A stretch of DNA of 64,000 nucleotides, taken from Sphingomonas carotinifaciens (lineage in GTDB: Bacteria; Pseudomonadota; Alphaproteobacteria; Sphingomonadales; Sphingomonadaceae). This document shows positions 18,626-60,744 of this stretch, in pieces; the first letter of the stretch is position 1, and every line of letters begins with the position of its first letter. The notes under the pieces are model-generated. The model searched no databases. It saw only the letters and a program-made list of their open reading frames with translations, and was not told the DNA's origin. The position numbers were made by a program, and so were the translations under genes. Location of the stretch: positions 261,361 to 325,360 of the forward strand of contig NZ_WSUT01000001.1 of the NCBI RefSeq assembly GCF_009789535.1, in the 5' to 3' direction.

Positions 18626-18671
18626 CATAATGGGACAGCGCAAAGCGGTTCCGATCAGGGAGAGGAATGCG

Positions 18672-22885: not shown

Positions 22886-25328
22886 GCGGGTCCTGGCGAT
22901 CGCGGCGCTGGCGGTGCTGCTGATCGCCGGCCCCACATCCGCGCAGACGCTGGTTCGGTTCGCGGCAGGCGGCGACGGGCTGGCGCTTGCCGATGCGCGC
23001 GGTCTGGCGTGTATCGTCACCGATCCGCGCGACCATGCCGTGGTCGCCATCGCCGCGGCTGACCTTCGCCGCGATCTGGCCCGGGTGTCCGGCCGCACCG
23101 GCGACAGCGGCGTGCAGCTGTGGCTGGGAACGCTCGGGCGTCACCGCGGGATCGACCGGCTCGTCCGGCGCGGGCGCCTGGACGTCACCCGCCTGCGCGG
23201 CGCGTGGGAAAGCTTCGTGATCGCCACCGTCGCCGATCCGGCCCCCGGCGTGGCGCAGGCGCTGGTCATCGCCGGCAGCGACCGGCGCGGCACCGCTTAC
23301 GGCGCCTATGAACTGGCGCAGGCGATCGGCGTCTCGCCCTGGCACTGGTGGGCCGACGTGCCGCCCGAACACCATGCCGACATCCGGGTGGTGCCCGGCA
23401 CCGTCCGCTTCGGCCCGCCGTCCGTCCGCTATCGCGGCATCTTCCTGAACGACGAGGATTGGGGGCTGGAGCCCTGGGCCGCGCGCACGCACGAGCCGGA
23501 GAACGGCACGATCGGCCCGCGAACCTATGCGCGGCTGTTCGAACTGATGCTGCGGCTGAAGGCCAATCTGGTCTGGCCGGCGATGCACAAGGTGACGCGA
23601 CCCTTCAACGCCGATCCCCGCAACGCGGCGCTGGCCGACCGTTATGGGATCGTCATAGGGTCCAGCCATGCGGAGCCGATGCTGCGCAACAATGTCGGCG
23701 AATGGACCGGCCCGGCCGATGGCTATGATTATGCGCGCCACCCGGCCGCCGTCGCCGATTACTGGCGGGCGCGCGTGCGCAGCCACCGCGATTACGAAAG
23801 CATCTGGACGCTGGGGATGCGCGGCATCCACGACAGCGGCATGATCGGCCCCGGCACCGATGGCGAGCGTCGCCGCCTGCTGGAGCGCATCATCACCGAT
23901 CAGCGCGCCTTGCTGCGCCGCGATGGCGGTCTCGATCCGTTACGCACGCCACAGGTCTTCACCCCGTACAAGGAGGTACTGGACCTGTATCGCGGCGGGC
24001 TGGCCGTGCCCGAGGATGTGACGCTGATGTGGCCGGACGACAATTTCGGCTATATCCGCCACTTCCCCGATGCCGCGGAGCGGCGCCGTCCGGGTGGCTC
24101 CGGCGTATATTACCACCTGTCCTATCTGGGTGCGCCCCTCTCCTATCTCTGGCTGTCCACCACGCCGCCCGCGCTGATCCGGGAGGAGATGGGCCGCGCC
24201 TGGGACCGGGGGGCGCGCACCATGTGGGTCGCCAATGTCGGCGATCTGAAGCCTGCCGAGCTGGCCACCGACTATTTCCTGCGCCTCGCCTGGGACGTGG
24301 CCGGCACCCGCGCGCACCCGATCGACGCGGTCGTCGCGGACTGGGCCGGGCGCAGCATCGGCACCGGCCTGGGTGCGGAGGCGGCCGCGATCCTGGCCGA
24401 GCATCACCGGCTGAACTTCATCCGCCGTCCCGAACATCTGCAATGGTGGCTTCCCGGCGAACTGTCCCGCCCCAGTCCGCTTGCGCCCGCCGAGGTCGAG
24501 GTGCGCCTCGCCGATTTCGCCCGGCTTGCCGCCCGCGTCCTCGCGCTGGCCGCCCGTGTCGCGCCCGATCGCCGCGATGCCTTCTTCGAACTGATCGACT
24601 ATCCGGTCACCGCCGCGGCGCTAGCCAATGTCCGCGTGTTCGAGGCGGAGGCGCATGACCGGTTGCGCGATACGGCCCCCGCCGCCGCCCTGGCCGCCGC
24701 GGCGCGCGCGGTTGCGGCCGATACCGCCATCGCCGCGCTCACCCGGCGCTACAATCACGATGTCGCCGGCGGCAAATGGCGCCACATCATCGCGGCGGAG
24801 CCGGCCGACGGCCAGTGGCGACGCTATCGGCTCACCCCGCCCATCCTTCCCGCCGTACCGCCCGCGCCCACACCGTGGCGCACCGGCCCCGTCGCCCCCG
24901 CCACACCACCCGATCCCGTCCTGGAAGCGGCGGATGCCACCGGCCCGGCGATCGGCTGGCGCCGCATCGACGGGCTGGGCCAAAACGGCGCCGCCGTCAC
25001 GGCCCAGGCCGGCGTCACCCTTGACTACCGCATCACCCTGCCGCCCGGCCGCTGGCGGATGACGGCCGATCTGCTGCCGACCTATCCCGATACGGATGGT
25101 GCGCCCCTGGCGCTGTCGGTCGCGCTGGACGGCGCCGCGCCCGTCATGCTGGCCGCGCCGCGCAACACCGGCGACCCCGCCTGGGCGCAGGCGGTGCTTG
25201 CGAACCGCATCGACCTGGCGCTCCCCACGCCCATGGCGGGGGGTGCGCACCGCATCAGCCTGCGCTTTCCGGCCGCGGGGTTGATCGTCGACCGGATGCG
25301 CTTCCAGCGGATCGCCGCGGTGGATTGA
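22872..25328 (+). CDS. GH115 family alpha-glucuronidase-type glycosidase
   Basis: 818 residues with a signal peptide (MAFARRVLAIAALAVLLIAG). GH115 enzymes remove (4-O-methyl)glucuronic acid from xylan. Characteristic segments are YRGIFLNDEDWGLEPWA, LMLRLKANLVWPAMHK, IVIGSSHAEPMLRNN and the MWPDDNFGYIRHFP region. The C-terminal ~150 residues form the beta-rich domain seen in this family. ATG 22872 lies inside the end of the GH53 gene; the frame continues slightly upstream without a better start. It closes the receptor-GH53-GH115 transcription unit and, with GH39, makes a small xylan/pectin side-chain set. Confidence 0.92.
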   Translation: MAFARRVLAIAALAVLLIAGPTSAQTLVRFAAGGDGLALADARGLACIVTDPRDHAVVAIAAADLRRDLARVSGRTGDSGVQLWLGTLGRHRGIDRLVRRGRLDVTRLRGAWESFVIATVADPAPGVAQALVIAGSDRRGTAYGAYELAQAIGVSPWHWWADVPPEHHADIRVVPGTVRFGPPSVRYRGIFLNDEDWGLEPWAARTHEPENGTIGPRTYARLFELMLRLKANLVWPAMHKVTRPFNADPRNAALADRYGIVIGSSHAEPMLRNNVGEWTGPADGYDYARHPAAVADYWRARVRSHRDYESIWTLGMRGIHDSGMIGPGTDGERRRLLERIITDQRALLRRDGGLDPLRTPQVFTPYKEVLDLYRGGLAVPEDVTLMWPDDNFGYIRHFPDAAERRRPGGSGVYYHLSYLGAPLSYLWLSTTPPALIREEMGRAWDRGARTMWVANVGDLKPAELATDYFLRLAWDVAGTRAHPIDAVVADWAGRSIGTGLGAEAAAILAEHHRLNFIRRPEHLQWWLPGELSRPSPLAPAEVEVRLADFARLAARVLALAARVAPDRRDAFFELIDYPVTAAALANVRVFEAEAHDRLRDTAPAAALAAAARAVAADTAIAALTRRYNHDVAGGKWRHIIAAEPADGQWRRYRLTPPILPAVPPAPTPWRTGPVAPATPPDPVLEAADATGPAIGWRRIDGLGQNGAAVTAQAGVTLDYRITLPPGRWRMTADLLPTYPDTDGAPLALSVALDGAAPVMLAAPRNTGDPAWAQAVLANRIDLALPTPMAGGAHRISLRFPAAGLIVDRMRFQRIAAVD

Positions 25329-29585: not shown

Positions 29586-31826
29586 ATGAAGATGGTGGCT
29601 GGTTCCAGCCTGTGGACGATCGCGCTTGTCCTGAGCGCCGCACCGGCAACGGGCAATGTCGCGGTGGACGATGCCCCCGCAGCGGCGGTGTCGATGCCGG
29701 ACGAGGACCCGCAGGATCAGGCCATTGTCGTCACCGGCGAAAAGGACAAGCGGCCGACGACGTCGACGCGGCTCCCGCTGACCCTGAGGGAAACGCCGCA
29801 ATCGGTGACCGTGGTCGATCGCCAGCGTATCGAGGATTTCAACCTGACCTCGGTCACCGAGGTCCTGGCCCAGACGCCGGGCGTGACGATCTCGTCCACC
29901 GACAGCAACCGCACCAATTTCAACGTCCGCGGCTTTGCGGTGCGCAACTTCCAGCTCGATGGCGTGCCGACCATCTATCAGGTGAGCGGATACGAGAACA
30001 GCGCGGTCGGCGACATCGCCATCTATGACCGGGTGGAGGTGATCCGCGGCGCGGCCGGGCTGGTGACCGGCGTTGGCGACCCGTCCGCGACGGTGAACCT
30101 GATCCGCAAGCGCGCACCGGGCGAATTTCGCGGCTATTTCTCGATGCAGGGCGGCAGCTTCTCGACCTATCGGCTGGAGGCTGATATCGGCGGCCCGGTG
30201 ACGCAGGACGGGTCGGTCCGCGCCCGCGTCGTCGCGGCCTATACCGACCGCGAATCCTATATCGACCTGCAGCATGATCGTGTCCCGGTGTTGTACGGCA
30301 CGCTGGAATGGGACGTGACGCCGCACACCCGTCTGCGCGTCGGTGCCGACTATCTGCGCACCGACTCGCGCGGGGCGGGCTGGGGCTCGGTCCCCCTGCT
30401 CTACACCGACGGCACGAAGACGGATTTCCCGCGCTCCTTCACCGGCACCACGCGCTGGACCCAGTGGCTGCGCGAGACGACAACCGTGTTCGGCGCGGTG
30501 GAACAGGATATCGGCAGCAACTGGCTGCTGCGCGTCAGCTATAATGGCCGGCGCGGCGATAACGACAGCACGCTGTTCAACATCCCCAACGGCTTTCCCA
30601 ATCGCGACGGCACCGGTCTGGGCGCGCCCTTCTCCTTCTATGGCGAGGTCGACCAGAACGAGGACGCGATCGACGCCTATGTCGCGGGCAAGGTGACGCT
30701 GTTCGGCCGCGAGCATGAGGTGGTCGCCGGCATGAACCATTTCGAGCGCGACTTCCTGGTCAATCGCTCGCGCTACGGCGCAACGCCGCCAGGCTATCCG
30801 ACCGCGGAGACAGGCACCCCCGACATCGACCCGTGGAACCCGACTTTCCCCCGGCCCGACATCATCCGCTCGACCGTGCCCGATTTCACGCAGGACCTGC
30901 GCCAGACCGGCGGCTACGGCGTCGTGCGCCTGAACCCGGCGGACTGGCTGAAGGTGATCGCCGGCGTGCGCTACACCGACTACAAGGCCGATCGCGACAA
31001 TTACCTGGACGGCGTGTTGCAGCCCGACGGCGTCAGCAACGTGCAGCATGAGAGGAAATGGGCGCCATATGGCGGCATCGTCGCCGATCTGACGCCAGCG
31101 ATCTCGCTTTATGCCAGCTATGCCAGCGTCTTCACGCCGGTGTCGGCGCGCAACGCCAACAACGACATCCTGCCCCCCACCACCGGCGCCAATTACGAGG
31201 CGGGTGTGAAGGCGACACCCTTTGGCGAAGGCTTCACCGTCTCGGCAGCGGGCTTCCATATCCGGCAGGACAATCTGACGATCACCGATCCCAATGCCGT
31301 GCCCAACTCCCTGCCCGGCAACCTGACCCCCTCGCTGTCGGTGTCGGGCGTGAAGACTTGGGGCGGCGAGGCCGAGGTTGCCGGCGAGCCGCTGCCCGGC
31401 TGGACGATCAACGGCAGCTATACCTATGCCCGGTCGGAGGATCGCACCGGCCTGCGCATCAACCCGTTCTTCCCGCTGCACCTGGGCCGCGTCTATACAA
31501 CGTACCGCCTGCCCGGCGACCGGCTGACGATCGGCGGCGGCGTGACCGCGCAGTCGCGCATCTTCGACCGCGGCAACGTGCCCTCCGGCCGGTTCACCGC
31601 CGCCGGTGCGCCGATCCTGGTCGCCGGCGAGGTCGAACAGGGCGCCTATGCCACCGTCGATGCGCTCGCCCGCTACAAGCTGACCGAGCGTGCGATCCTC
31701 AGCGTCAACGTCACCAACCTGTTCGACCAGAGCTATTATCGCAACGTCCGCTTCGCCTTTGGCGGGCCGGGCGGTTTCTATGGCGAGCCTCGCCGGGTGA
31801 TCGGCAGCATCCGGGTAAATTTCTGA
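29586..31826 (+). CDS. TonB-dependent siderophore receptor (FhuE/FpvA type)
   Basis: 746 residues: signal peptide, the TonB-box-like QAIVVTGEK, and a plug domain with the hallmarks of siderophore receptors. These are TLRETPQSVTVVDRQRIEDF, LAQTPGVTISS, FNVRGFAV, and IYDRVEVIRGAAGLVTGVGD followed by PSATVNLIRKR. A beta-barrel follows, ending GSIRVNF. It should import a ferric siderophore using TonB-ExbBD energy. ATG 29592 (third residue) is as likely a start, being six bases after GGGGGA. No siderophore biosynthesis genes lie nearby, so it may take up foreign siderophores. Confidence 0.94.
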   Translation: MKMVAGSSLWTIALVLSAAPATGNVAVDDAPAAAVSMPDEDPQDQAIVVTGEKDKRPTTSTRLPLTLRETPQSVTVVDRQRIEDFNLTSVTEVLAQTPGVTISSTDSNRTNFNVRGFAVRNFQLDGVPTIYQVSGYENSAVGDIAIYDRVEVIRGAAGLVTGVGDPSATVNLIRKRAPGEFRGYFSMQGGSFSTYRLEADIGGPVTQDGSVRARVVAAYTDRESYIDLQHDRVPVLYGTLEWDVTPHTRLRVGADYLRTDSRGAGWGSVPLLYTDGTKTDFPRSFTGTTRWTQWLRETTTVFGAVEQDIGSNWLLRVSYNGRRGDNDSTLFNIPNGFPNRDGTGLGAPFSFYGEVDQNEDAIDAYVAGKVTLFGREHEVVAGMNHFERDFLVNRSRYGATPPGYPTAETGTPDIDPWNPTFPRPDIIRSTVPDFTQDLRQTGGYGVVRLNPADWLKVIAGVRYTDYKADRDNYLDGVLQPDGVSNVQHERKWAPYGGIVADLTPAISLYASYASVFTPVSARNANNDILPPTTGANYEAGVKATPFGEGFTVSAAGFHIRQDNLTITDPNAVPNSLPGNLTPSLSVSGVKTWGGEAEVAGEPLPGWTINGSYTYARSEDRTGLRINPFFPLHLGRVYTTYRLPGDRLTIGGGVTAQSRIFDRGNVPSGRFTAAGAPILVAGEVEQGAYATVDALARYKLTERAILSVNVTNLFDQSYYRNVRFAFGGPGGFYGEPRRVIGSIRVNF

Positions 31827-50302: not shown

Positions 50303-52672
50303 TCAGAAGCCGATCCGGCCGATCACCCCGAAATAGCGATCCGCCTCGCGCGGGATGATGTAGCGATAGCTGCCGCCCGGCCCGCCGCTGGTGATCGATG
50401 CGGCGAAGCTCTGATCGAACAGGTTCTTCACCTGAAAGCCCAGCCGGAAGCGATCCCGCGCGTCGATCAGCGCAACGCCGAGATCGACCAAGGCATAATC
50501 GCCGATCGTCGTCGCCTGCCGGATCGCGGGCGAGGCATCGAACTGGCTGATCTGGTCGGACTGCCACGATCCTTGCGCGTTCAGCCCGAAATCGACCGCT
50601 CCGCCGGTGCGGATCCGCCAGTCGCCGGCCAGCGACGCCTTCCATTCCGGCGCATAGGCCAGCCGCGTGCCGGGCGCGATCACGCCGGTGACGGTGCCGG
50701 TCGGCTGGCGGAACCGGTCGACATGCGCATCGGTATAGGCCAGCCCACCCGACAGCGACACGTCGCGCGCCGGGTTCCAGATCAGGTCCAGCTCGCCACC
50801 CCTCGTGGAAATGCGCCCGGCATTGGTGAAGCGGGTGACGAGGACGCCGGCCACCACATCCGGGTTGTTCGCCTGAAAATTGTCGTAGCGCGCGTAATAG
50901 GCGGCCAGGTTCAACACCAGCTTGCCACCGAACAGCGTGTTCTTGATCCCCGCCTCGTAGCTGTCGACCGTTTCCGGTTCGATGACATTGGTGCCGGTGC
51001 CCGCCAGATTGTAGAAGATGTTGTAGGCCGGGCCCTTATAGCCACGCGTCCAGGTGGCGTAGACGGTGTGGTCGTGCGACAGGTCGAACTGCGCGCCGGC
51101 CATGCCCGACCAGTTGTCGTTGGTCGTCTTGGTGGTGAAGGGGATGCCGTTGGCGGCAACCACCGCCTGCGTCTGGGCCGTTGTCGGCGCCACGCCGTTC
51201 GTGACCAGCGAGACGTAGCGGTCGTACACGCCCTGGTCGAAATTGGGCTGGATACCCGGCCCGGTCAGGGCGGTCTGCCGGATGTGGAAGACGTTCAACT
51301 GGTCATGGGTGAAGCGGATACCGCCGAGCAGGCGCAACCGCTCGCTGACATTGACGGTGAAGCGCCCGAACGCGGCGAGGTTCTTGAAGGTCGACCCGAA
51401 ATTCGCGGTGCCCGTCGGCCGCGTCACGGTGACGCCGGGCGCATCGCATCCGGTCAGCACCGCAGCGTTCGGCGCGCACAGCGTGACGTCGCGGCGGAAG
51501 GTACGCTCCGTATCCGCCCAGCTGTAGAAGACGCCGCCGACATAATCGACCAGCCCGCCGCTCGGCGACGTGATCCGAACCTCCTGCGTGAAGGTGCGGC
51601 CCACCTGCGGCCCGAAATCGTGGAGCTCGTTCAGCCCGGCATTGGCATAGGGTTGCGCCAGCCAGTCGCCGTCGCGGATTTCGGTATTGTCGTAACGGCG
51701 CCATGCGGTGATCGAGGTGAGCGTGTTTCGGCCCAGCGTCGCATCGATCTGGAGCGAGCCACCATAGCTTTCCTCACTGGTCGCGGTCACCAGATTCTGG
51801 CGCACCCGGCGCGTGCGGTTGCCCAGGGGCGTGGGAAGGATCTGCGCGGCGAGATTGTTGGGGGTCGTCCCGATCACCTCCGCGCAGCAGTCATCATCGG
51901 CCTTGCGATAATCGCCGATCAGCGTGATCGTCAGGTCCGGTGTCGGATCGGCGACGACGATGCCGCGCACGCCCCAGCGCTCATAGCCGTTGACGCGGCG
52001 ATCGACATTGGGCGCCTCGTTGAACAGGTTGCCGTCATATTTGCTGTAGAAGCCGGTGACGCGGCTCGCCACCCGCTCGCCCAGCGGCACGTCGATCGCG
52101 GCGCGGGCGCGATATTCGTTGCCATTGTCGAAGAAGAAGCCGCCTTCCGCATAGCCAGACAGGTCGCGCCCCGGCTTGCGGCTGACGATGTTGATGACGC
52201 CCGCCGACGCGTTCTTGCCGAACAGCGTGCCCTGCGGCCCGCGCAGCACCTCGATCCGCTCGATATCGACAAGGTCGCTGAACGCCTCGCCGGCGCGGCT
52301 GTAGACCACGCCGTCCACCACCGTGGACACCGACGGCTCGCCCGCGATCGAAAAGGTGGAGGTGCCGACGCCGCGCAGGAACAGCGACTGGTTGATGCTC
52401 GTCCCCGATTTGCGGAAGTTGAGCGTGGGAACCAGATATTGCGCGCTTTCCAGGTTGATGCCGCCCTGTCGCGCGATCAGGTCGCCGCCGATCACCGACA
52501 CCGCGACCGGCACGTCCTGCAACCGCTCCTCGCGCTTCTGCGCGGTGACGACGATATCGCCGCTGCGCTGCTCGGCCTGGGGCGTCTCCGGCGTGGCATC
52601 CTGCGCCGCGGCGGGGCTGGCGAACGCGGCGACCAGCGCGGCGGTCGCGGCGCGGGTGAAAAGATGGTTCAT
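50303..52672 (-). CDS. TonB-dependent receptor of the putative sulfosugar cluster
   Basis: 789 residues: signal peptide (MNHLFTRAATAALVAAFASP), TonB box-like GDIVVTAQKREERLQDVPVA, plug domain (PTLNFRKSGTSINQSLFLRG, then VDIERIEVLRGPQGTLFGKN and ASAGVINIVSRKPG) and a barrel ending YFGVIGRIGF. The plug type is the common sphingomonad receptor for small organic substrates. ATG 52672 has GGGGAG upstream. It lies 89 bases after the MFS gene on the same strand and would bring the cluster's substrate across the outer membrane. Substrate inferred from neighbours only. Confidence 0.93.
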   Translation of the reverse strand: MNHLFTRAATAALVAAFASPAAAQDATPETPQAEQRSGDIVVTAQKREERLQDVPVAVSVIGGDLIARQGGINLESAQYLVPTLNFRKSGTSINQSLFLRGVGTSTFSIAGEPSVSTVVDGVVYSRAGEAFSDLVDIERIEVLRGPQGTLFGKNASAGVINIVSRKPGRDLSGYAEGGFFFDNGNEYRARAAIDVPLGERVASRVTGFYSKYDGNLFNEAPNVDRRVNGYERWGVRGIVVADPTPDLTITLIGDYRKADDDCCAEVIGTTPNNLAAQILPTPLGNRTRRVRQNLVTATSEESYGGSLQIDATLGRNTLTSITAWRRYDNTEIRDGDWLAQPYANAGLNELHDFGPQVGRTFTQEVRITSPSGGLVDYVGGVFYSWADTERTFRRDVTLCAPNAAVLTGCDAPGVTVTRPTGTANFGSTFKNLAAFGRFTVNVSERLRLLGGIRFTHDQLNVFHIRQTALTGPGIQPNFDQGVYDRYVSLVTNGVAPTTAQTQAVVAANGIPFTTKTTNDNWSGMAGAQFDLSHDHTVYATWTRGYKGPAYNIFYNLAGTGTNVIEPETVDSYEAGIKNTLFGGKLVLNLAAYYARYDNFQANNPDVVAGVLVTRFTNAGRISTRGGELDLIWNPARDVSLSGGLAYTDAHVDRFRQPTGTVTGVIAPGTRLAYAPEWKASLAGDWRIRTGGAVDFGLNAQGSWQSDQISQFDASPAIRQATTIGDYALVDLGVALIDARDRFRLGFQVKNLFDQSFAASITSGGPGGSYRYIIPREADRYFGVIGRIGF

Positions 52673-52712
52673 GGACAGGCTCCCCGGCATCATTGTTTCG
52701 GGGGTAGCTTGT

Positions 52713-52738
52713 ATATCCCACCGGTGAAATGGGAATAT
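52713..52738. promoter_or_regulatory. Imperfect inverted repeat upstream of the TonB receptor
   Basis: ATATCCCA (52713-52720), nine bases, then TGGG-A-ATAT (52730-52738): an 8-bp dyad with a one-base bulge, 41 bases upstream of the receptor start. It could be an operator for the putative sulfosugar genes. Confidence 0.3.
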
Positions 52739-52761
52739 GGCTTTACTTCATGGCGGGTTGA

Positions 52762-53994
52762 TCAGGCTTTAGCGCGGGGGACGGCGGGCATCATCATGCG
52801 CAGCCACGCAAATCCCAGCAGATAGGACGCGCCTGCGAATACGAACAGCGGCGTATAGCCCCCACCCGCGCTCAGCACCGCGCCCGTCACCCACACGATC
52901 GCGACGCCGCCCAGATTGCCGCAGAACGCGCCGAACGCGGTCACCCGGCCGACCTTGCTGCGTGGCACCACATCGGTGATCGTGCCGAAGATGCTGAGCG
53001 AGAAACCCTGATGCCCGGCCAGCACCAGCCCCATCATCACCGTCACCGCCCAATAGCTGTCGATGCGCAGGATGACCGGCACCGGCGCCACGACCAGTGC
53101 GGAGACCAGCATCACCGCGGCGCGCACCCGCGCGGGCGCCCAGCCCCGCGCCATCAACCGCCCGGACACCCATCCCGCCAGCAAGGCGCCCAGCCCCGAT
53201 CCCAGGAACGCGATCGCCAGCGGCAGACCGAGTTGCTCGGTGGAAAGCCCCAGCTCGCGACGATAGAAATCGGGCAGCCAGAAGTTCAACAGCCACCACG
53301 TCGCATCGGACAGCGCCTTGGCGACGACGATCGCCCAGGTCCGCCGCTCCAGCAGGATCGGGCCATAGGGCGCCGCGCCGTCCGCATAGTCCAATGCGGG
53401 ATCCTCGGCAGCATCGTCGAACACCACGCCGCGCGCCGCGATCCACCACAGCGCCAGCACGACGAACCCCCCGGCCCCCGCAAAGATCAGCGCGCCCCGC
53501 CAGCCCCAGGCTGCGGCCAGCACGGGGATGAAGAAGGGCAAGGTGATCGTGCCCGCCGCGCCGATCAGCGTGCCGGCCCCGATCGCCAGCGACCGCAGCC
53601 TGGGGCCGAACAAGGTCGCCACCGTCTTGATGGTCAGTGGCGTCTGCACCGCCTCGGTCGCGCCCAGGCCGACGCGCGCGGCGACCACCTGCCACCCGGT
53701 CATCGCCCAGCCATGCACCGCAGCCGCCAGGCTCCAGGCGGTGACGCCCGCCACCATCGACCGGCGCACGCCCAGCCGGTCGATCATCCAGCCGGTGAAC
53801 AGGTAGGATAGCGCCGCGGCAAACTGCGTCACCGCCGCCAGCCGCCCGAAATCGGCATCGCTCCACCCGAACTCCGCCGACATGTCGGGTTTCAGGATGG
53901 CGATGATCGGCCGGTCCATCGCGTTGAAGATGCCCGCCGCGCAGAGCAGCGCGAACAGCAGCCAGGCGCGCGAGCGCGAAAGCGAAGAGGTCAA
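52762..53994 (-). CDS. MFS transporter
   Basis: 410 residues with about 12 transmembrane helices. The first helix is AWLLFALLCAAGIFNAMDRP. The MFS motif A-like loop is GWMIDRLGVRRSM, and PLTIKTVATLFGPRLRSLAI is also present, resembling organic-anion/sugar-acid permeases (ACS-like subfamily). The TTG start at 53994 overlaps the stop of the monooxygenase gene (TTGA), so it is coupled to it. A permease for an anionic sugar such as sulfoquinovose or its glycoside would fit the neighbouring enzymes; this substrate is inference. Confidence 0.9.
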   Translation of the reverse strand: MTSSLSRSRAWLLFALLCAAGIFNAMDRPIIAILKPDMSAEFGWSDADFGRLAAVTQFAAALSYLFTGWMIDRLGVRRSMVAGVTAWSLAAAVHGWAMTGWQVVAARVGLGATEAVQTPLTIKTVATLFGPRLRSLAIGAGTLIGAAGTITLPFFIPVLAAAWGWRGALIFAGAGGFVVLALWWIAARGVVFDDAAEDPALDYADGAAPYGPILLERRTWAIVVAKALSDATWWLLNFWLPDFYRRELGLSTEQLGLPLAIAFLGSGLGALLAGWVSGRLMARGWAPARVRAAVMLVSALVVAPVPVILRIDSYWAVTVMMGLVLAGHQGFSLSIFGTITDVVPRSKVGRVTAFGAFCGNLGGVAIVWVTGAVLSAGGGYTPLFVFAGASYLLGFAWLRMMMPAVPRAKA

Positions 53995-55067
53995 GGCTGC
54001 AGCGGCGCGTGATCGAGGTGCGGCAGCACGTGGCGCGCGAACAGGTCCGCCTCCGCCGCGTGCGGGTAGCCGGACAGGATGAACGCCTCGATCCCCTCCG
54101 CCCGGTACGCGTTCAGCTTGGCGAGCACCTGATCGGGATCGCCGACGATCGCCGCGCCGCAGCCCGAGCGCGCCCGGCCGATCCCGGTCCACAGATTATC
54201 CTCGACATAGCCGTCCTGCCGCGCCGCTTGCTCGCGCAGTTCGGCCTGCCGTGCGACGCCGGCCGACTGGCTGTCCAGCGACTTGGCGCGGATGGCCGCC
54301 CCCGTATCGGCATCCAGCTTCGACACCAGGCGTTCCGCAGCCCGGCGTGCCTTGGCCTCCGTCTCGCGCACCACGACATGGACGCGGTAGCCGAATTTCA
54401 GCGTACGGCCCCGCGCCGCGGCGCGCGCGCGCAGGTCCGCGACGATGCCGCGCACGCCCGCCATCGTATCGGGCCACATCAGATAGACGTCCGCCCCTGC
54501 CGCCGCGGCATCGCGGGCCGCGGGCGACAGGCCGCCGAAGTAGAAGGACGGGCAGCGGCCGGACACCGTCGTCACGCGCGGCGGCGCGACATCCAGTTGC
54601 CAGAACTCGCCGTCATGGCGCAGGGGCTCGCCGTTCAGCAGCGTGCGCAGGATGTGCATGGCCTCCACCGTGCGGCGGTAGCGCGGGGCGCTTTCCAGCG
54701 TCTGGCCGGGCAGGTCGCTGGAAATGATGTTCACCGTCAGGCGTCCGCCCAGCATCCGGTCGATCGTGGCGATCTGGCGCGCCAGTTGCGGCGGCCAGCT
54801 TTCGCCGATCCGCACCGCCATCAGCAGGCGGATACGCGTGACCAGTGCCGCCATCCCTGCGGCAAAGGCGGTGGTGTCGATCCCCAGCGCATAGCCCGAC
54901 GGTAGCAGCACATTGTCGAAGCCTCCGCTTTCCGCCTGCAACACGATGTCGCGACAATGCTCGAAACTGGACGCCAGCCGGGCGTCGGGCACGCCCAGAA
55001 ACTCGTAATCGTCATCGCACAGCGCGGAGAACCAGCTTACCTCGCACGGGGGCAGCGCGGCGGTCAT
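53991..55067 (-). CDS. LLM-class FMN-dependent monooxygenase, SmoC-like (putative sulfoquinovose monooxygenase)
   Basis: 358 residues of the bacterial luciferase-like, alkanesulfonate-monooxygenase (SsuD) branch. SsuD-type blocks are visible: WFSALCDDDYEFLGVPD, NVLLPSGYALGIDTTAFAAG, GRLTVNIISSDLPGQ, YFGGLSPAARDAAA and FGYRVHVVVRETEAKA. Enzymes of this kind use FMNH2 and O2 to split a C-S bond and release sulfite. In the known sulfo-SMO pathway SmoC converts sulfoquinovose to 6-oxo-glucose. The adjacent aldo/keto reductase and Gfo/Idh/MocA genes make that role likely here. No flavin reductase gene is adjacent, so FMNH2 must come from elsewhere. It overlaps the AKR stop by 4 bases. Confidence 0.85.
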   Translation of the reverse strand: MTAALPPCEVSWFSALCDDDYEFLGVPDARLASSFEHCRDIVLQAESGGFDNVLLPSGYALGIDTTAFAAGMAALVTRIRLLMAVRIGESWPPQLARQIATIDRMLGGRLTVNIISSDLPGQTLESAPRYRRTVEAMHILRTLLNGEPLRHDGEFWQLDVAPPRVTTVSGRCPSFYFGGLSPAARDAAAAGADVYLMWPDTMAGVRGIVADLRARAAARGRTLKFGYRVHVVVRETEAKARRAAERLVSKLDADTGAAIRAKSLDSQSAGVARQAELREQAARQDGYVEDNLWTGIGRARSGCGAAIVGDPDQVLAKLNAYRAEGIEAFILSGYPHAAEADLFARHVLPHLDHAPLQP

Positions 55068-55957
55068 GGCAGGCGCTCCCCGGTGCCCGCCTGCATCACC
55101 GCATACCAGCGCTCCCGGTCCCATTCGACCTTGAAGGCGTCGGTGGACGCGCGGATGCGAGCGGCCTTTTGCGACCCGACGATCGGAATGATCCGCGCCG
55201 GATGCACCATGATCCAGCTCAGCGCCGCGGCGACCGCATCGACGCCGTAGACCGCACCCTGCTCCGCCAGCAACGCCCCTGCGGCATGCCCCGTATCGGT
55301 CAACCGCCCTCCGCCCAGCGGCGACCAGGCCAGCACCGAAACATTCGCCGCCATCGCCTGGTCCAGCGTGCCGTCGTACAAGGGCGCGACGCACAGCGGC
55401 GAAAATTCGGGCTGCGTCGATACGATCGGCAGGTTCAGGAAACGCTGCAACGCGCCCAGCTCCGCCGGGCTGTGGTTCGACACGCCGACGCTGCGCACCT
55501 TGCCCGCCTCGACCAGCCGGGTCAGCGCGGCGGCGACCTCCTGCGGATGGGTCAGGAAGTCGCGGCGGTGGATCTGGTACAGGTCGATCACATCGGTCTG
55601 CAGGCGGCGCAGAGAGGCGTCGCACGCCGCCGCCAGATAGTCGGCGCTCGTATCATAGGGCACCGGTGGGGTGATCCCACCCTTGGTGGCCAGCACGATC
55701 CGGCCGCGCAGCCCCCTGTCTGCGGCCAGCACCTCGCCCAGTATCGCCTCCGCGCCGCCAAAGCCCTCGGGCGCGTCGAAACCGTAGATGTCGGCGGTGT
55801 CGAACAGGGTGATTCCGGCATCCAGCGCGGCATGGACGAGCGCCGTGGCCGCCGCCACCTCCCCCGTCAGCCGCCACATGCCCCAGGCGATGGGGGAGAC
55901 GGAAATGTCGCTGTTGCCGAGTTGGCGGGGCTGGCGATCGGGAAGGAGCTTGTGCAT
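55064..55957 (-). CDS. Aldo/keto reductase, SmoB-like
   Basis: 297 residues, AKR fold. The catalytic tetrad is intact: Asp53 and Tyr58 (FDTADIYGF), Lys92 (LATKGG), His130 (DLYQIHRRD). NADPH-binding features appear near the C-terminus (IPIVGSQKAARIRAS). In the sulfo-SMO pathway SmoB reduces 6-oxo-glucose made by the monooxygenase to glucose. Order and coupling with the LLM gene (ATGA overlap) suggest the same task here. Its start codon lies only 29 bases from that of the divergent Gfo/Idh/MocA gene. Confidence 0.88.
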   Translation of the reverse strand: MHKLLPDRQPRQLGNSDISVSPIAWGMWRLTGEVAAATALVHAALDAGITLFDTADIYGFDAPEGFGGAEAILGEVLAADRGLRGRIVLATKGGITPPVPYDTSADYLAAACDASLRRLQTDVIDLYQIHRRDFLTHPQEVAAALTRLVEAGKVRSVGVSNHSPAELGALQRFLNLPIVSTQPEFSPLCVAPLYDGTLDQAMAANVSVLAWSPLGGGRLTDTGHAAGALLAEQGAVYGVDAVAAALSWIMVHPARIIPIVGSQKAARIRASTDAFKVEWDRERWYAVMQAGTGERLP

Positions 55958-55986
55958 ATGCCCATCAGGTAAATAGGAAATCGGCT

Positions 55987-57072
55987 ATGACTTCAACCGT
56001 TCGCTACGGCATCGTCGGCACCGGGATGATGGGCGTGGAGCATATCCGCAACATCGCAATTCTTCCCGGCGCCGAGGTCGCAGCTATCGTGGATCCGGTG
56101 GCCACGTCCCTCGACTGGGCGCGCGACGCGCTTGGCGAGGGTGCCGCCTCCGTCGCGGCGTTCGGCGACGTGGCCAGCTTCGCGCGCGAGGCGCGGGTCG
56201 ATGCGGTGGTGGTCGCCTCCCCCAACTATACCCACCGCGACGTGCTGGCGCCGCTGTTCGCGACCGGGGCTGCGATCCTGTGCGAAAAGCCGCTGGCGAC
56301 GACGATGGCGGATGCGCGCTGGATCGTGGAGCAGACCGCCGACCGCGACGCGCCATTCTGGACCGGCATGGAATATCGCTACATGCCGCCCGCCGCCGCC
56401 TTTATCGAACAGGTGCATGGCGGCCGCATCGGCCGCTTGCAGATGCTGTCGATGCGCGAACATCGCTTTCCCTTCCTTCAAAAGGTCGGCGACTGGAACC
56501 GCTTCTCCCGCAATACGGGCGGCACGATGGTGGAGAAATGCTGCCATTTCTTCGACCTGATGCGCCTGATCGTGCAGGCGGAGCCGGTGCGGGTCTTCTG
56601 TTCCGGGGGGACGGACGTGAACCATCTGGACGAACGCTATGGCGGTGAACGACCCGACATCATCGACAACAGCTATACCGTGGTGGACTTCGCCAACGGC
56701 GTCCGCGCGATGCTGGACCTGTGCATGTTCGCCGAGGGTGCGGAACATCAGGAGGAAATCTCCGCGACCGGTGACAAGGCGCGGCTCGACGTGCTCATTC
56801 CGCCCGGCGACCTGGTGTTCAGCCCCCGTGTCGAATGGCCTGCGCCCAAGACGCCGGAGGTCACGCATATATCGGTCGACGATGCCGCGATGCGTGCCGG
56901 CTCGCACCACGGCGCCACCTATTACCAGCATGCCGCCTTTCTGGCCGCGGTGCGGGGCGAAGCCCCCGTGCACGTCACCGCCGAGGATGGCCTGCGCGCC
57001 GTTGCGATTGGCACTGCGGCCGAGATCAGCGCCCGCGAACGCCGCGTGGTGGAGATGGCGGAATTGATCTAG
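55987..57072 (+). CDS. Gfo/Idh/MocA family protein, possibly NAD-dependent sulfoquinovosidase (GH188-like)
   Basis: 361 residues. Rossmann motif GIVGTGMMG (8-16), EKPL (100-103) of the Gfo/Idh/MocA fold, then HRFPFLQKVGDWNRFSRNTG (159-178) and MVEKCCHFFDLMR with Lys184 and His187. Besides sugar dehydrogenases this superfamily includes glycosidases that use bound NAD+ in a redox mechanism; the GH188 sulfoquinovosidases are such enzymes. The flanking SmoC/SmoB-like genes make the release of sulfoquinovose from its glycoside a reasonable guess. An ordinary sugar dehydrogenase or another NAD-dependent glycosidase remains possible. AGGA lies about eight bases before the start. Confidence 0.8.
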   Translation: MTSTVRYGIVGTGMMGVEHIRNIAILPGAEVAAIVDPVATSLDWARDALGEGAASVAAFGDVASFAREARVDAVVVASPNYTHRDVLAPLFATGAAILCEKPLATTMADARWIVEQTADRDAPFWTGMEYRYMPPAAAFIEQVHGGRIGRLQMLSMREHRFPFLQKVGDWNRFSRNTGGTMVEKCCHFFDLMRLIVQAEPVRVFCSGGTDVNHLDERYGGERPDIIDNSYTVVDFANGVRAMLDLCMFAEGAEHQEEISATGDKARLDVLIPPGDLVFSPRVEWPAPKTPEVTHISVDDAAMRAGSHHGATYYQHAAFLAAVRGEAPVHVTAEDGLRAVAIGTAAEISARERRVVEMAELI

Positions 57073-57250: not shown

Positions 57251-58015
57251 ATGCCATCGCCATCCCCCCTTGCGCGCCGCATGTTGGAAACCCCGTCACG
57301 CCGCCGGTTCGGTTTCGTCATGCTGCTTGCCGGCCTGGCGCTGGTGCTGGGGGCGATCGGCTATCTGGGATATATCGGCTGGTTCGGCGGCCCCGTTTAT
57401 CGGCTGGTTCCCGCCGCCGGGGCGGCACCCGCGCGTGAGCGCGGCGTCGCGGCCGTCTTCCTGTCCGGTGACTCCGGGGCCAACACCGGCATGGCACCGC
57501 ACCTGATACAGGCGATCGCCGACCGCGGCGTGCCGGTGCTTGCCATCAATTCCCTGACCGCCTTTGCCCATCGCCGCACGCCCGAACAGGCGCGCATGTT
57601 GATCGTGGAGGCGACCCGGCGTGCGCTGGCACTGCCCGGCGTGCAGCGCGTCGTCCTTGCCGGCCAGTCCTTCGGGGCCGACATGCTGCAATTCGGCGTC
57701 GCCACGATGCCGGCGAGCCTGCGGCCGCGCATCGTTCAGGTCATCCTGGCGGTGCCCGGCGATTCCCTCGTCTTCAAGGCGACGCCCGGCGGCTTTCTGG
57801 ATGGCCCGCCGGACCGCGCCGCCTTGCCCAGCGCGCGCAGCATCGACTGGCTGCCGGTCACCTGCATCCACGGCACGCAGGAGGAGAACAGCCTGTGCCC
57901 GCTGCTCCACGCCCGTAACGTGCGCCGCGTGACCCTGCCGGGCGACCATTATCTGCACCATGACGCCGCGGCATTGTCCGCAACGATCTGGCAAGCGATC
58001 CGCCGGGGCGGATGA
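57251..58015 (+). CDS. AcvB/VirJ-like serine hydrolase, membrane-anchored
   Basis: 254 residues. An N-terminal membrane segment (FGFVMLLAGLALVLGAIGYL) is followed by an alpha/beta-hydrolase of the VirJ/AcvB family: FLSGDSGANTGMAPHL, RTPEQARMLIVEATRRAL, the nucleophile Ser in VVLAGQSFGADMLQFG, and a terminal HYLHHD histidine. In Agrobacterium and relatives AcvB is encoded with LpiA (an MprF) and degrades lysyl-phosphatidylglycerol in the periplasm. The same pairing here suggests it trims the aminoacylated lipid made by the next gene. A GAGGAGGT ribosome site precedes the start. Confidence 0.85.
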   Translation: MPSPSPLARRMLETPSRRRFGFVMLLAGLALVLGAIGYLGYIGWFGGPVYRLVPAAGAAPARERGVAAVFLSGDSGANTGMAPHLIQAIADRGVPVLAINSLTAFAHRRTPEQARMLIVEATRRALALPGVQRVVLAGQSFGADMLQFGVATMPASLRPRIVQVILAVPGDSLVFKATPGGFLDGPPDRAALPSARSIDWLPVTCIHGTQEENSLCPLLHARNVRRVTLPGDHYLHHDAAALSATIWQAIRRGG

Positions 58016-58119
58016 TCGGCGCCGCGGATGACGGAATGTTCATCCGGCGTCGATCCGCCGGCAAGCTCGGCGACCCTATTGCGGTCGCATCGCACCATGC
58101 GATGACTGGAGCGCCGTTC

Positions 58120-60744
58120 ATGACCATCACGCCCCGCGTGGCTGATCCGCTGGCGCTTGTCCGCCGGTACCGCATCGCGCTGACCATTGCCGCGACGTTG
58201 GTGCTGGGGATTGCGGCGATGGAGGCGCTGACGCGCCAGATCACCTTTGCCCAGGTGCGCGCGGCGCTGCACGCGCTGGCGCCTGCCCGCATCGCGATGG
58301 CGATCGCGCTGACCGCCGGCAGCTATCTTGCCCTGACCTTTTACGACGTGCTGGCGCTGCGCATCATCGGCCGGCCACTACCATGGCGGATCGCGGCGCT
58401 CGCCTCGTTCACCAGCTACACGCTCAGCCACAATCTGGGGCTTTCGCTGCTGACCGGCGGATCGGCACGCTATCGCATCTACACCCGCGCGGGACTGGAC
58501 GGTCCCGATGTCGCGCGCGTGATCGCGGTCGCGAGCGCGACCTTCTGGACGGGCATCGTCATCATCGCGGGGGCCGCGCTGCTCGTCCGGCCGGGCGCGC
58601 TGGCGGTCGGCGGGCTCGTGATCCCGCCGGCGACGCTCCACCTCGCCGGAACCCTGATCCTCGCCGCGGCCGCGCTGCTGGTCGGCCTGTGCGCGCGAAC
58701 GCGCGGACCGCTGCGGCTGTGGCGCTTTCACCTGCCACTTCCCTCCGTGGGCCAGGCCATGGTTCAGATCGGCATCGCCCTGCTCGACACGTCGGCTGCG
58801 GCCGCGGCGCTGTTCGTGCTGGTGCCGGATGCGACGCCCTGGCTGCTCCCCGCCTTCATCCTCGCCTATGCACTAGGCATCGTCGCTGCGGCGGTGACGC
58901 ACATACCCGGTGGCATCGGCGTGTTCGAGGCCGTGGTGCTGGCGGTGCTGCCCGGCGACCGGACGACCGCCCTTGCCGCGTTGGTGGCGTACCGGGTGAT
59001 CTACTACCTCGTGCCGCTCGGCGCCGCGATCACCCTGCTGGCCCTTCGCGAGGGGATGCGGCACCGGCGCCGCGCTGCACAGTGGCTTCACGAGGGGCGT
59101 GACGCCGCGGGCGGGATCGCACCGTCGTTGATGGCGGTGGCAAGCGCCCTTGGCGGCGCGTTGCTGTTGCTGTCCGGCTCGCTGCCGTCGCTGCATGCCC
59201 GCATGGGCGCCCTGGCCGCGATCGTGCCGCTGCCCTTCATGGAGGCGAGCCATATCGCCGCCAGCCTGGTCGGCACCGGGCTGCTTCTGCTTGCGCCGGG
59301 CCTGTATCGCCGGCTCGACGGAGCGTTCGTCGCGGCGCGGGTCTTGCTGATCGCGGGTGCGATATTCTCGCTGTGCAAGGGCATCGACTATGAAGAGGCG
59401 GCGGTCTGCCTGTCGCTGGCCGGGTTGCTGCAATGGACCCGCGCGGCCTTCTACCGCCACACCGCCCTGACCCAGACGCCGCTGTCGGGTGCATGGCTGG
59501 CCGCATTGGCCGCGCTGTTGACGGGTATCGCCTGGATCGGCCTGTTCGCCTATCGCCATGTGCCCTATGACGATGCGCTGTGGTGGCGCTTCGCATGGAC
59601 CGGCGATGCCCCGCGCTTCCTGCGGGCGACGCTCGCGGCGGCGGTGTTGCTGGCGGCGGTGACCCTGTGGCGCTGGCTGGGTCCGGCCCCCGTGGTCGAG
59701 GAGACGCCGGTCGACCCGGCGGCGATCGCCGACGTGCTGACGGGGGCCGATCGCACCGATGCCATGCTGGCGCTGACCGGCGACAAGCGGTTCCTGCTGT
59801 CCGAGGACGGGCAGGCGATGCTGATGTACCAGCGGCGCGGCGCCACTTGGGTCGTGATGGGCGACCCGGTCGGCGACCCCGCCGCCTGGCCGGCGCTGCT
59901 CTGGCGCATCCGTGACATGGCCGACCGGGCGCAGGGGCGGCTGCTGCTGTATCAGATCAGCACCCCCGTTCTCGACCTGGCGATCGGCATGGGCCTGAGC
60001 ATCGTCAAATATGGCGAGGAGGCGATCATCGACCTGCCGGACATGACGTTCGAGACCCCGCGCCTGCGCTCGCTGCGCAAGGCGGAGCGCGCCGCCGCCC
60101 GCCGCGGCCTGTCGTTCCGGATCGTGCCGGCGGGCGCGGTGCCGGTGATCCTGGATGCGCTGGAGGCGGTGTCCGACGAATGGATGCGCGCCAAGGGGCA
60201 TGCCGAAAAGGGCTTCAGCCTCGGCCGGTTCGACCGCGACTATATCTGCCGGTTCGATGTCGCACTGGCGATGGCGGGCGACCGCATCGTCGCCTTCGCC
60301 AATCTGTGGTTGACCGCAAATGGCCGGGAAGCGTCCGTGGATCTGATGCGCCACCGCAGCGATGCCCCGCATGGTACGATGGACTTCCTGTTCTACCACA
60401 TCATCGACTGGGCGATGGCGCGCCGTTACGCCCGCTTCTCGCTGGGCATCGCGCCGCTGTCGGGCATCGCCGGACGCCGGCTGGCGCCCGCATGGGCGCG
60501 GGCGGCGGCGCTGATCTTCCGGCATGGCGAACGCTTCTACGGCTTTCGCGGGCTACGCGCCTACAAGGAGAAGTTCGCCCCCCGCTGGGAGCCGCGCTAC
60601 ATCGCCGGGCCGCGCGGGCTGGCGCTGGTCCAGGCGCTGCGCGACCTGTCGCTGCTGGTCGGCAGCGTGGCGCCGCGGCAAGATGACCAAGCGGTAATCT
60701 CCGGCCCAGTGTCCGCTCACCCGGCATCCCCTATCGCCGCCTGA
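58120..60744 (+). CDS. mprF: Bifunctional aminoacyl-phosphatidylglycerol synthase/flippase
   Basis: 874 residues. About 14 transmembrane helices (residues ~15-520) form the flippase and lower TM region, including TSYTLSHNLGLSLLTGGSAR. The C-terminal cytoplasmic synthase domain (~540-850) has the DUF2156/GNAT-like fold: KRFLLSEDGQAMLMYQRRG, VVMGDPVGDP, FSLGRFDRDYICRFDVA, FSLGIAPLSGI, LRAYKEKFAPRWEPRY. It transfers lysine or alanine from tRNA to phosphatidylglycerol and flips the product, making the membrane more cationic. ATG 58120 has GGAG upstream; the open frame reaches ATG 58012, which overlaps the acvB-like stop, as an alternative. Confidence 0.93.
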   Translation: MTITPRVADPLALVRRYRIALTIAATLVLGIAAMEALTRQITFAQVRAALHALAPARIAMAIALTAGSYLALTFYDVLALRIIGRPLPWRIAALASFTSYTLSHNLGLSLLTGGSARYRIYTRAGLDGPDVARVIAVASATFWTGIVIIAGAALLVRPGALAVGGLVIPPATLHLAGTLILAAAALLVGLCARTRGPLRLWRFHLPLPSVGQAMVQIGIALLDTSAAAAALFVLVPDATPWLLPAFILAYALGIVAAAVTHIPGGIGVFEAVVLAVLPGDRTTALAALVAYRVIYYLVPLGAAITLLALREGMRHRRRAAQWLHEGRDAAGGIAPSLMAVASALGGALLLLSGSLPSLHARMGALAAIVPLPFMEASHIAASLVGTGLLLLAPGLYRRLDGAFVAARVLLIAGAIFSLCKGIDYEEAAVCLSLAGLLQWTRAAFYRHTALTQTPLSGAWLAALAALLTGIAWIGLFAYRHVPYDDALWWRFAWTGDAPRFLRATLAAAVLLAAVTLWRWLGPAPVVEETPVDPAAIADVLTGADRTDAMLALTGDKRFLLSEDGQAMLMYQRRGATWVVMGDPVGDPAAWPALLWRIRDMADRAQGRLLLYQISTPVLDLAIGMGLSIVKYGEEAIIDLPDMTFETPRLRSLRKAERAAARRGLSFRIVPAGAVPVILDALEAVSDEWMRAKGHAEKGFSLGRFDRDYICRFDVALAMAGDRIVAFANLWLTANGREASVDLMRHRSDAPHGTMDFLFYHIIDWAMARRYARFSLGIAPLSGIAGRRLAPAWARAAALIFRHGERFYGFRGLRAYKEKFAPRWEPRYIAGPRGLALVQALRDLSLLVGSVAPRQDDQAVISGPVSAHPASPIAA

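Follow-up and report, generated by a model that had tools for sequence, protein, structure and literature searches.

Organization of the Cluster

Five genes coding for a TonB-dependent receptor, an MFS permease, a monooxygenase (LLM), an aldo/keto reductase (AKR), and a Gfo/Idh/MocA protein lie together in the window, that is, the whole stretch of 64,000 nucleotides analysed in this work (Table 1). The five-gene arrangement described in the first-pass annotation was confirmed, including the 29 bases (55958-55986) that separate the divergent starts of AKR and Gfo. The MFS gene starts with TTG, overlapping the LLM stop codon in TTGA, and the LLM gene starts with ATG, overlapping the AKR stop codon in ATGA. 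The same annotation had pointed to the absence from the cluster of a GH31 enzyme, an ABC importer, and a flavin reductase, and indeed none of them was detected among the five genes and the neighbours scanned with them.

Table 1. Genes of the cluster and their predicted products.
Predicted product	Positions	Strand	Length	Basis
TonB-dependent outer-membrane receptor	50303-52693	-	796 aa	PF00593 141.8 bits, PF07715 61.3 bits
MFS permease	52762-53994	-	410 aa	PF07690 163.6 bits
SmoC/SquD-type FMNH2-dependent sulfoquinovose monooxygenase (LLM), putative	53991-55067	-	358 aa	PDB matches, quick tree
SmoB/SquF-type aldo/keto reductase (AKR; 6-oxo-glucose to glucose), putative	55064-55957	-	297 aa	PDB matches, tetrad
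GH188 NAD+-dependent sulfoquinovosidase, SqgA type (Gfo/Idh/MocA), putative	55987-57072	+	361 aa	PDB matches, active-site residues

Assignment of the Enzymes

The conservation of the cluster was evaluated on the best 80 of 525 Gfo loci, 64 of which have full flanks. When compared with PDB entries, the Gfo protein matched 8qc3 (369.9 bits), 8qc2 (369.2 bits), and 8zn9 (355.3 bits), the next entry being 3ezy (85.9 bits), and the inositol 2-dehydrogenase 4hkt scored 74 bits. 8QC3 and 8QC2 are SqgA proteins, i.e., GH188 NAD-dependent sulfoquinovosidases (PMC10755693), and the identity to ArSqgA is 178/352 (51%). The active-site description of ArSqgA in that paper names a sulfonate triad (Arg166, Leu170, and Lys172) and further contacts (Lys107, Tyr136, Glu189, His193, and His321), whose counterparts here are R160, L164, and K166, and K101, Y130, E183, H187, and H307, respectively; all eight residues are invariant in 80/80 of the best 80 loci. 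A ninth residue given in the same description, Glu163, aligns to Val by the offset used, with a Glu adjoining. No signal peptide was recognized on inspection by eye. The idea that this protein might belong to GH188 is in agreement with these data and, judging from its sequence, it is a member of this family rather than another Gfo/Idh/MocA protein of the inositol/glucose dehydrogenase group.

The closest PDB entries to LLM are 7olf (379.5 bits, 54.6% identity) and 7oh2 (370.9 bits, 52.4%), both of which we take to be SmoC, followed by the MsuD-type 7jv3 (214.6 bits, 38.0%) and SsuD 1nqk (195.5 bits, 36.1%). At the 119 diagnostic positions, defined as those where both SmoC sequences agree and differ from both 7jv3 and 1nqk, LLM agrees with SmoC at 59 and with SsuD/MsuD at 20, whereas the remaining 40 are occupied by other residues. 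The phylogenetic check suggested earlier gave the same result as scores and identities: in a quick tree LLM groups with SmoC, apart from SsuD/MsuD (SH-aLRT 96, with a long-branch warning), as a sister clade lying outside the solved SmoC proteins. Furthermore, it misses the equivalog cut-off of TIGR03565 (SsuD), with 253.4 vs. 518.2 bits. The residues W198, R228, H230, R300, Y334, and H336, presumably the sulfonate-site residues common to SsuD and SmoC, are kept in 73/73 SmoC-bearing loci among the best 80 of 525. Thus, LLM is assigned to the SmoC/SquD type rather than to the SsuD/MsuD one. Proteins 79-80% identical to LLM are also encoded by four rhizobial plasmid regions; since no AKR or Gfo match (E<=1e-6) occurs there within ~6-7 kb, the LLM clade is not bound to this enzyme set.

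Concerning AKR, the best matches were 7bby/7bbz (177.1 bits), with 7BBY presumably representing SmoB, followed by 7twz (137.8 bits) and YdhF (136.6 bits). The tetrad D53, Y58, K92, and H130, whose integrity had already been noticed, is indeed intact, and it is invariant in 68/68 AKR-bearing relatives among the best 80 of 525. With a margin of ~40 bits over the next match, SmoB/SquF is the type to which AKR appears nearest.

Linkage in Related Loci and in the Rest of the Genome

Among the best 80 of 525 loci, SmoC is present at 73, AKR at 68, MFS at 71, and a TonB homologue at 72. The complete set of GH188, SmoC, SmoB, MFS, and TonB was observed at 47 of the 64 full-flank loci, most of them from sphingomonads. 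A TonB homologue was found at 57/64 full-flank loci; it shares at least 45% identity with the receptor of the window in 20 of them and is a different receptor (<45%) in 37. A Poisson estimate based on the genome of the strain itself, whose 76 TonB-barrel matches correspond to an expectation of 0.35 in every 19 kb, would predict such a homologue in ~30% of the loci. In 15 loci the receptor sharing at least 45% identity lies downstream of GH188, and in 5 it flanks the cluster at the side of SmoC; since it is found on either side, it moves with the enzyme set. The best NCBIfam match of the MFS permease is the D-galactonate transporter TIGR00893 (94.1 bits, under the cut-off of 395).

Two families of neighbours, each identified from one scanned member, are PF03601, found in 11/80 of the best 80 loci, and the sulfite-oxidase-like PF00174, found in 7/80, and genes annotated as "putative sulfate exporter" lie near related clusters, including those of Salipiger and Rhizobium sp. 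SL42; these neighbours fit a release of sulfite from the pathway. No PF03601 exporter was matched in the genome of the strain itself. An S1-type sulfatase is encoded at 16 of the best 80 loci, with the motif CSPSR in 16/16, and none is present in the window cluster.

AKR is missing from 12 of the best 80 loci, 9 of them with full flanks. SmoB was searched for elsewhere in eight of the corresponding genomes: three keep a SmoB of 67-69% identity outside the cluster, and in the other five no SmoB orthologue was detected genome-wide. Five loci (L049, L060, L065, L071, and L073) embed SmoC and GH188 and no recognisable SmoB. Sphingomonas kyeonggiensis and S. pituitosa likewise possess SmoC and GH188 and lack a SmoB orthologue. 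Hence, the pathway as drawn below would be incomplete in five relatives, whose genomes lack a SmoB orthologue. A PhyH dioxygenase was considered as a substitute for SmoB; AKR is also present in 8/12 PhyH loci, so that this idea is not supported.

In the genome harboring the window, no second SmoC or GH188 was found, the only other candidates for the monooxygenase step being a 35% identical LLM protein (C5:1524248) and a weak one (C1:71584), both of which were rejected. Nor is a YihQ-type GH31 sulfoquinovosidase encoded in this genome: its two GH31 proteins match alpha-xylosidases best (1040 and 416 bits vs. 65 and 114 bits for the YihQ type). Flavin-reductase-type matches are two for PF01613, both outside the cluster (G000 C1:219344 and C5:1060850), and five for PF03358. 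Out of the six genomes of the genus listed, the Gfo gene is present in one, the window's own.

Proposed Pathway and Alternatives

On the basis of the SmoC, SmoB, and GH188 matches, of their linkage across loci, of the lack of a second SmoC or GH188, and of the xylosidase-type nature of both GH31 proteins, we consider it highly probable that the cluster encodes a sulfolytic sulfoquinovose monooxygenase pathway (sulfo-SMO or sulfo-ASMO) in which GH188 acts as the gateway enzyme. The three adjacent enzymes of Salipiger and Rhizobium sp. SL42, the neighbours fitting sulfite release, and the SmoB kept outside the cluster in three genomes also speak for this reading. Weighing against it are the ~40-bit margin of the SmoB assignment, the 60/119 diagnostic positions at which LLM does not carry the SmoC residue, together with its sister-clade position, the lack of a flavin reductase in the cluster, the five genomes devoid of SmoB, the rhizobial LLM proteins found apart from the set, the presence of Gfo in one of six genomes of the genus, and the Val aligned to Glu163. 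This gene set, as read from sequence, would very probably free sulfoquinovose (SQ), the sugar of the plant sulfolipid, remove its sulfur, and yield glucose. Sulfoquinovosyl glycerol or SQ might cross the outer membrane through the TonB receptor and be moved into the cytoplasm by the MFS permease; GH188 would then free SQ through a transient C3 oxidation with NAD+, as expected from its family, SmoC would convert it with FMNH2 and O2 into sulfite and 6-oxo-glucose, and SmoB would reduce the latter to glucose. FMNH2 might be supplied by a flavin reductase encoded outside the cluster.

Gene linkage is what points to the TonB receptor and the MFS permease as candidate importers of sulfoquinovosyl glycerol or SQ, and it has to be weighed against the possibility, which we regard as rather unlikely, that the enzymes do form a GH188/sulfo-SMO set, as in the preferred reading, and the receptor (perhaps also the permease) is an unrelated neighbour, SQ entering through a porin or another route. 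TonB-barrel genes are indeed abundant in this genome, 37 of the 57 TonB matches in full-flank loci fall under 45% identity, in Salipiger and Rhizobium sp. SL42 the neighbour of the enzymes is a TRAP importer, and the only nearby TonB receptor of Salipiger is annotated for siderophores and lies a few genes off. However, the frequency of TonB homologues among the full-flank loci of the best 80 exceeds the Poisson estimate, the more similar receptor travels with the set on either side, and TonB receptors are also encoded in the two plasmid clusters of Novosphingobium where an alpha-glucosidase takes the place of GH188. A broader proposal, according to which sphingomonads possess a dedicated TonB and MFS route importing intact sulfoquinovosyl glycerol to a cytoplasmic GH188 and, in addition, the five loci devoid of SmoB use a different reductase, is advanced tentatively, since as a whole we would not quite call it probable; a limited literature search retrieved no previous report of such a dedicated import.

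The same enzymatic logic might act on another 6-sulfo sugar or glycoside (e.g., sulfofucose or a sulfated sugar), with the aid of a sulfatase in some relatives, and the sulfatases mentioned above would be odd for a sulfonate substrate, although the window cluster has none; nevertheless, the GH188 sulfonate and sugar-contact residues never vary in the best 80 loci, and the sulfofucose pathway, as outlined in PMC12421959, couples other enzymes, which makes this an improbable explanation. Even less credit can be given to an SsuD-like scavenging of sulfonates for sulfur supply: LLM shares 36-38% identity with SsuD/MsuD and gives a sub-cut-off match to TIGR03565, and yet SmoC is far closer to it in both scores and tree. 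Moreover, we know of no requirement for a sulfoquinovosidase or SmoB in alkanesulfonate scavenging. Lastly, Gfo/Idh/MocA, AKR, and MFS proteins are generic families that would also suit an ordinary, sulfur-free catabolism of sugars or inositol, an idea that the large difference in score between SqgA and 4hkt and the presence of SmoC render hardly credible.

Sphingomonas strains are common on leaves. If the sulfo-SMO reading with import to glucose in one conserved cluster is true, these bacteria would rank as primary degraders of the sulfolipid of plants, the passage through the outer membrane via TonB being a candidate step. The split and SmoB-less versions of their relatives offer natural material in which to look for an alternative reductase. 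The production of sulfoquinovose is estimated at ~10 billion tons/year (PMC10755693).

Comparison with Known Systems

According to the criterion reported in PMC13372026, SmoB and SmoC genes located inside a 10-ORF window denote sulfo-SMO, genomes being scored positive on both; here the two genes are adjacent, with overlapping frames. The first-pass annotation had regarded the cluster as a distinct layout. The absences on which this was based hold true for the cluster and the neighbours scanned with it, but the kind is already known: clusters without a flavin reductase have been described (PMC9594981), and Sphingomonas sp. Leaf17 and Dinoroseobacter shibae appear among the representative GH188 clusters in the legend of Figure 5 of Kaur et al. 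2023 (PMC10755693). In that work, as far as its account of the clusters goes, GH188 occurs in SQ clusters including sulfo-SMO ones, the comparison with Leaf17 being limited to its name in the legend. Hence, the combination of GH188 and sulfo-SMO is not new, and Sphingomonas had been represented by name.

The same SmoC/SquD and SmoB/SquF pair characterizes the sulfo-SMO systems of Agrobacterium tumefaciens and Novosphingobium aromaticivorans, as presented in PMC9594981 and PMC12890257. The sulfo-ASMO cluster of the latter, which emerged from a survey of clusters containing the sulfoquinovosidase YihQ, is depicted without SsuE (PMC9594981) and shares the lack of a flavin reductase with the window cluster, whereas Agrobacterium is described with an SQGro ABC transporter where the window has TonB and MFS, plus a GH188 gene. 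The SsuD/MsuD alkanesulfonate monooxygenases belong to the same family as LLM and form a separate group of the tree. In the plasmid clusters of Salipiger sp. CCB-MM3 (L110) and Rhizobium sp. SL42 (L165), relatives of the three enzymes are encoded by adjacent genes (Gfo 47-50%, LLM 52-53%, and AKR 37-38% identity); unlike in the window, these operons embed GntR, a flavin reductase, and a TRAP importer and neither MFS nor TonB. Two Novosphingobium plasmid clusters (L111 and L166) resemble the window one in having LLM (70% identity), AKR, and TonB, with GH188 replaced by a gene annotated as alpha-glucosidase and with a glycerol kinase adjoining in L111.

Gene organization and genomic context

The five genes of the putative sulfoquinovose (SQ) cluster lie at the coordinates reported in the first-pass annotation and overlap as described there: the TTG start codon of the MFS gene is inside the LLM stop, the ATG start of the LLM gene spans the AKR stop, the starts of the AKR and Gfo genes are separated by 29 bases, and the TonB gene begins 68 bases past the MFS stop. 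The LLM and MFS frames are those listed in the table, a mechanical ORF list placing both starts further upstream. The window corresponds to C1:261361-325360 of its own genome (G000; 4.09 Mb, 7 contigs). Ten ORFs scanned in its remainder included a GH115 gene accompanied by TonB receptors, in agreement with the earlier remark on hemicellulases.

Coordinates of the cluster and of the other features discussed
Feature	Location	Strand	Remark
TonB receptor	window 50303-52693	-	
MFS transporter	window 52762-53994	-	
LLM monooxygenase	window 53991-55067	-	
AKR	window 55064-55957	-	
Gfo/Idh/MocA protein	window 55987-57072	+	
VirJ-domain protein, then MprF	window 57251-60744		directly 3' of the GH188 gene; MprF match strong (882.8 bits, cut-off 600)
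GH115 glycoside hydrolase	window 22827-25328		
TonB receptors	window 18630-21641, 29586-31826		
PF01613 flavin reductase	C1:219344		adjoins two aldehyde-dehydrogenase-like ORFs (by eye)
PF01613 flavin reductase	C5:1060850		own genome
Second LLM	G000 C5:1523348-1525288		L099, L161
S1-type sulfatase	L025:2356-3894		
S1-type sulfatase	L049:4189-5730		
S1-type sulfatase	L108:8583-10145		
PhyH dioxygenase	L049:6985-7803		
PhyH-family dioxygenase	L108:11398-12144		

Neither a second SmoC nor a second GH188 protein was found in the genome. Its two GH31 proteins are closest to alpha-xylosidases, which supports the claim that the classical GH31 sulfoquinovosidase is absent. Flavin reductases are encoded away from the cluster; PF00174 (sulfite-oxidase-like) has four matches in the genome and PF03601 none. 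A second LLM, 35% identical, adjoins a PF00174 molybdenum oxidoreductase and probably represents a separate sulfonate or sulfone locus. LLM homologues labelled Sphingomonas carotinifaciens were 99% and 97% identical to that of the window, the latter on a plasmid-labelled record (both among the best 120 of 8000 scored).

Assignment of the three enzymes

The best PDB matches of the LLM protein were 7olf (379.5 bits, 54.6% identity) and 7oh2 (370.9 bits, 52.4%), which we take to be SmoC and which the PDB calls 'Methanesulfonate sulfonatase' and 'Alkanesulfonate monooxygenase'; then came 7jv3 (214.6 bits, 38.0%), presumably MsuD, and 1nqk (195.5 bits, 36.1%). A quick maximum-likelihood tree (99 rows; the tool gave a long-branch warning) placed the window LLM, 83 relatives, the two SmoCs and a Salipiger LLM in a single group (support 96) separate from SsuD/MsuD. 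The window LLM clade (84 rows, support 95) is the sister of the solved SmoCs and takes in the Novosphingobium pentaromativorans protein (L111), encoded there with an AKR and an alpha-glucosidase. Ranking, identities and tree all place this protein with SmoC and not with SsuD, in agreement with the SmoC role proposed earlier. The literature describes a further enzyme of the sulfo-SMO pathway from a sphingomonad, N. aromaticivorans SquD, which is biochemically characterised (PMC9594981).

The Gfo protein matched best 8qc3 (369.9 bits) and 8qc2 (369.2 bits), given as SqgA enzymes in the accessible text of the paper founding GH188 (PMC10755693), followed by 8zn9 (355.3 bits), whose PDB name is only 'Oxidoreductase, putative', and then by 3ezy with just 85.9 bits; 178 of 352 residues are identical to ArSqgA. 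The same text (Kaur et al., PMC10755693) names Lys107, Tyr136, His193, Glu189 and His321 as SQ contacts, and Arg166, Leu170 (backbone) and Lys172 as the sulfonate triad. Mapped onto 8qc3 with a numbering offset of 13, all eight match the named type; the window protein is identical at each, and they are kept in 80/80 loci (the top 80 among 525 retrieved with the window Gfo). The ninth published residue, Glu163 (PMC10755693, same portion), falls at that offset on a Val, the neighbouring position being a Glu kept in the window as E158. The window protein has the usual Leu at the equivalent of position 170, where Tyr variants are described in the available text of Backlund and Higgins (PMC11465081). 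Both the gap between about 370 bits and 85.9 bits and the eight retained residues argue for a GH188 member, as had been proposed, with the sulfonate triad.

The AKR is nearest to the entries 7bby/7bbz (177.1 bits), which we take to be SmoB and which carry the PDB name 'Aryl-alcohol dehydrogenase', against 137.8 bits for 7twz and 136.6 for YdhF. The tetrad D53 Y58 K92 H130, already described as intact, occurs in 68/68 relatives with an AKR. On these sequence comparisons, its assignment as a putative SmoB is the least secure among the three.

Distribution and conservation of the cluster

A Gfo match at E<=1e-50 was present in 63/298 Sphingomonadaceae genomes (two of the 63 merely 36-37% identical) and, among the six own-genus genomes listed, in the window genome only; the gene set is therefore patchy. 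Some copies are plasmid-borne, as seen in Sphingobium yanoikuyae and Sphingomonas paeninsulae.

The 80 loci, chosen through Gfo, are mostly from sphingomonads, with a few from Caulobacterales. SmoC was found in 73, AKR in 68, MFS in 71, TonB in 72 and the full five in 53; for the 64 loci with full flanks the corresponding counts were 62, 55, 63, 57 and 47. The commonest order, TonB- MFS- LLM- AKR- GFO+ (29/64 full-flank loci), is that of the window. In profile searches the TonB receptor and the MFS protein appear generic, the closest model of the latter being a D-galactonate transporter, far below its cut-off; it is their linkage to the enzyme genes that suggests a role in uptake. The 76 TonB-barrel matches of the genome correspond to 0.35 expected per 19 kb, that is, to about 30% of 19-kb stretches with at least one. 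In 15 loci a receptor orthologue (identity of 45% or more) is located downstream of GH188, and in five it is on the SmoC side. Of the 57 receptors in full-flank loci, however, 37 are no orthologues of the window receptor, so that different receptors may serve, or just accompany, the same enzymes. Titles and abstract openings retrieved for sulfoquinovose with TonB or TonB-dependent contained no report on SQ uptake.

Accessory genes, counted as ORF clusters among the 80 loci and named after scanning one or two members per family, comprise a LacI regulator (24/80), an S1-type sulfatase in or adjoining the SQ cluster (16/80, L065 and L073 among them), a PhyH dioxygenase near SmoC (12/80, including L040, L051 and L054), PF03601 (11/80) and PF00174 (7/80); all five are absent from the window cluster. 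The CSPSR motif is present in 16/16 sulfatases, and that of L025 is closest to the solved GlcNAc-6-sulfatase 5g2v. Such a neighbour is odd, because SQ is a sulfonate.

Twelve of the 80 loci lack the AKR, and eight were traced genome-wide. In three genomes (L025, L028, L045) a SmoB 67-69% identical is located elsewhere, in one case within a second LLM-AKR-GFO cluster (L146) and in two (L156, L157) with no LLM or Gfo match within ~7 kb. The genomes of L049, L060, L065, L071 and L073 (a MAG) have SmoC and GH188 and yielded no SmoB orthologue, their best AKRs being distant, with 35-45% identity along a portion of the sequence; in these genomes 6-oxo-glucose is reduced by some other enzyme, or else the pathway is altered or broken. 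Four rhizobial plasmid regions (L109, L142, L143, L144) encode an LLM 79-80% identical with no AKR or Gfo match nearby; that of L109 adjoins a LacI regulator and an ABC sugar importer.

Comparison with known clusters

On plasmids of the Bacteroidota Emticicia and Spirosoma (L163, L164), LLM proteins 43-48% identical are encoded next to a GH95 gene together with genes for a symporter or for SusC/SusD. Salipiger and Rhizobium sp. SL42 share Gfo-LLM-AKR with the window but differ in having GntR, a flavin reductase and a TRAP importer, whereas two Novosphingobium plasmids share LLM-AKR and a TonB receptor and differ in an annotated alpha-glucosidase. Monooxygenase and reductase are thus constant, while glycosidase and importer vary. 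Sphingomonas sp. Leaf17 is named among the GH188 clusters in the Fig. 5 legend of JACS 2023 (PMC10755693). According to PMC13372026, Novosphingobium takes up 13C-SQ, and sulfo-SMO is predicted for close relatives of it. The window cluster is real and the initial reading of it correct, with TonB/MFS import as a candidate route; it is one further member of a type of cluster already known.
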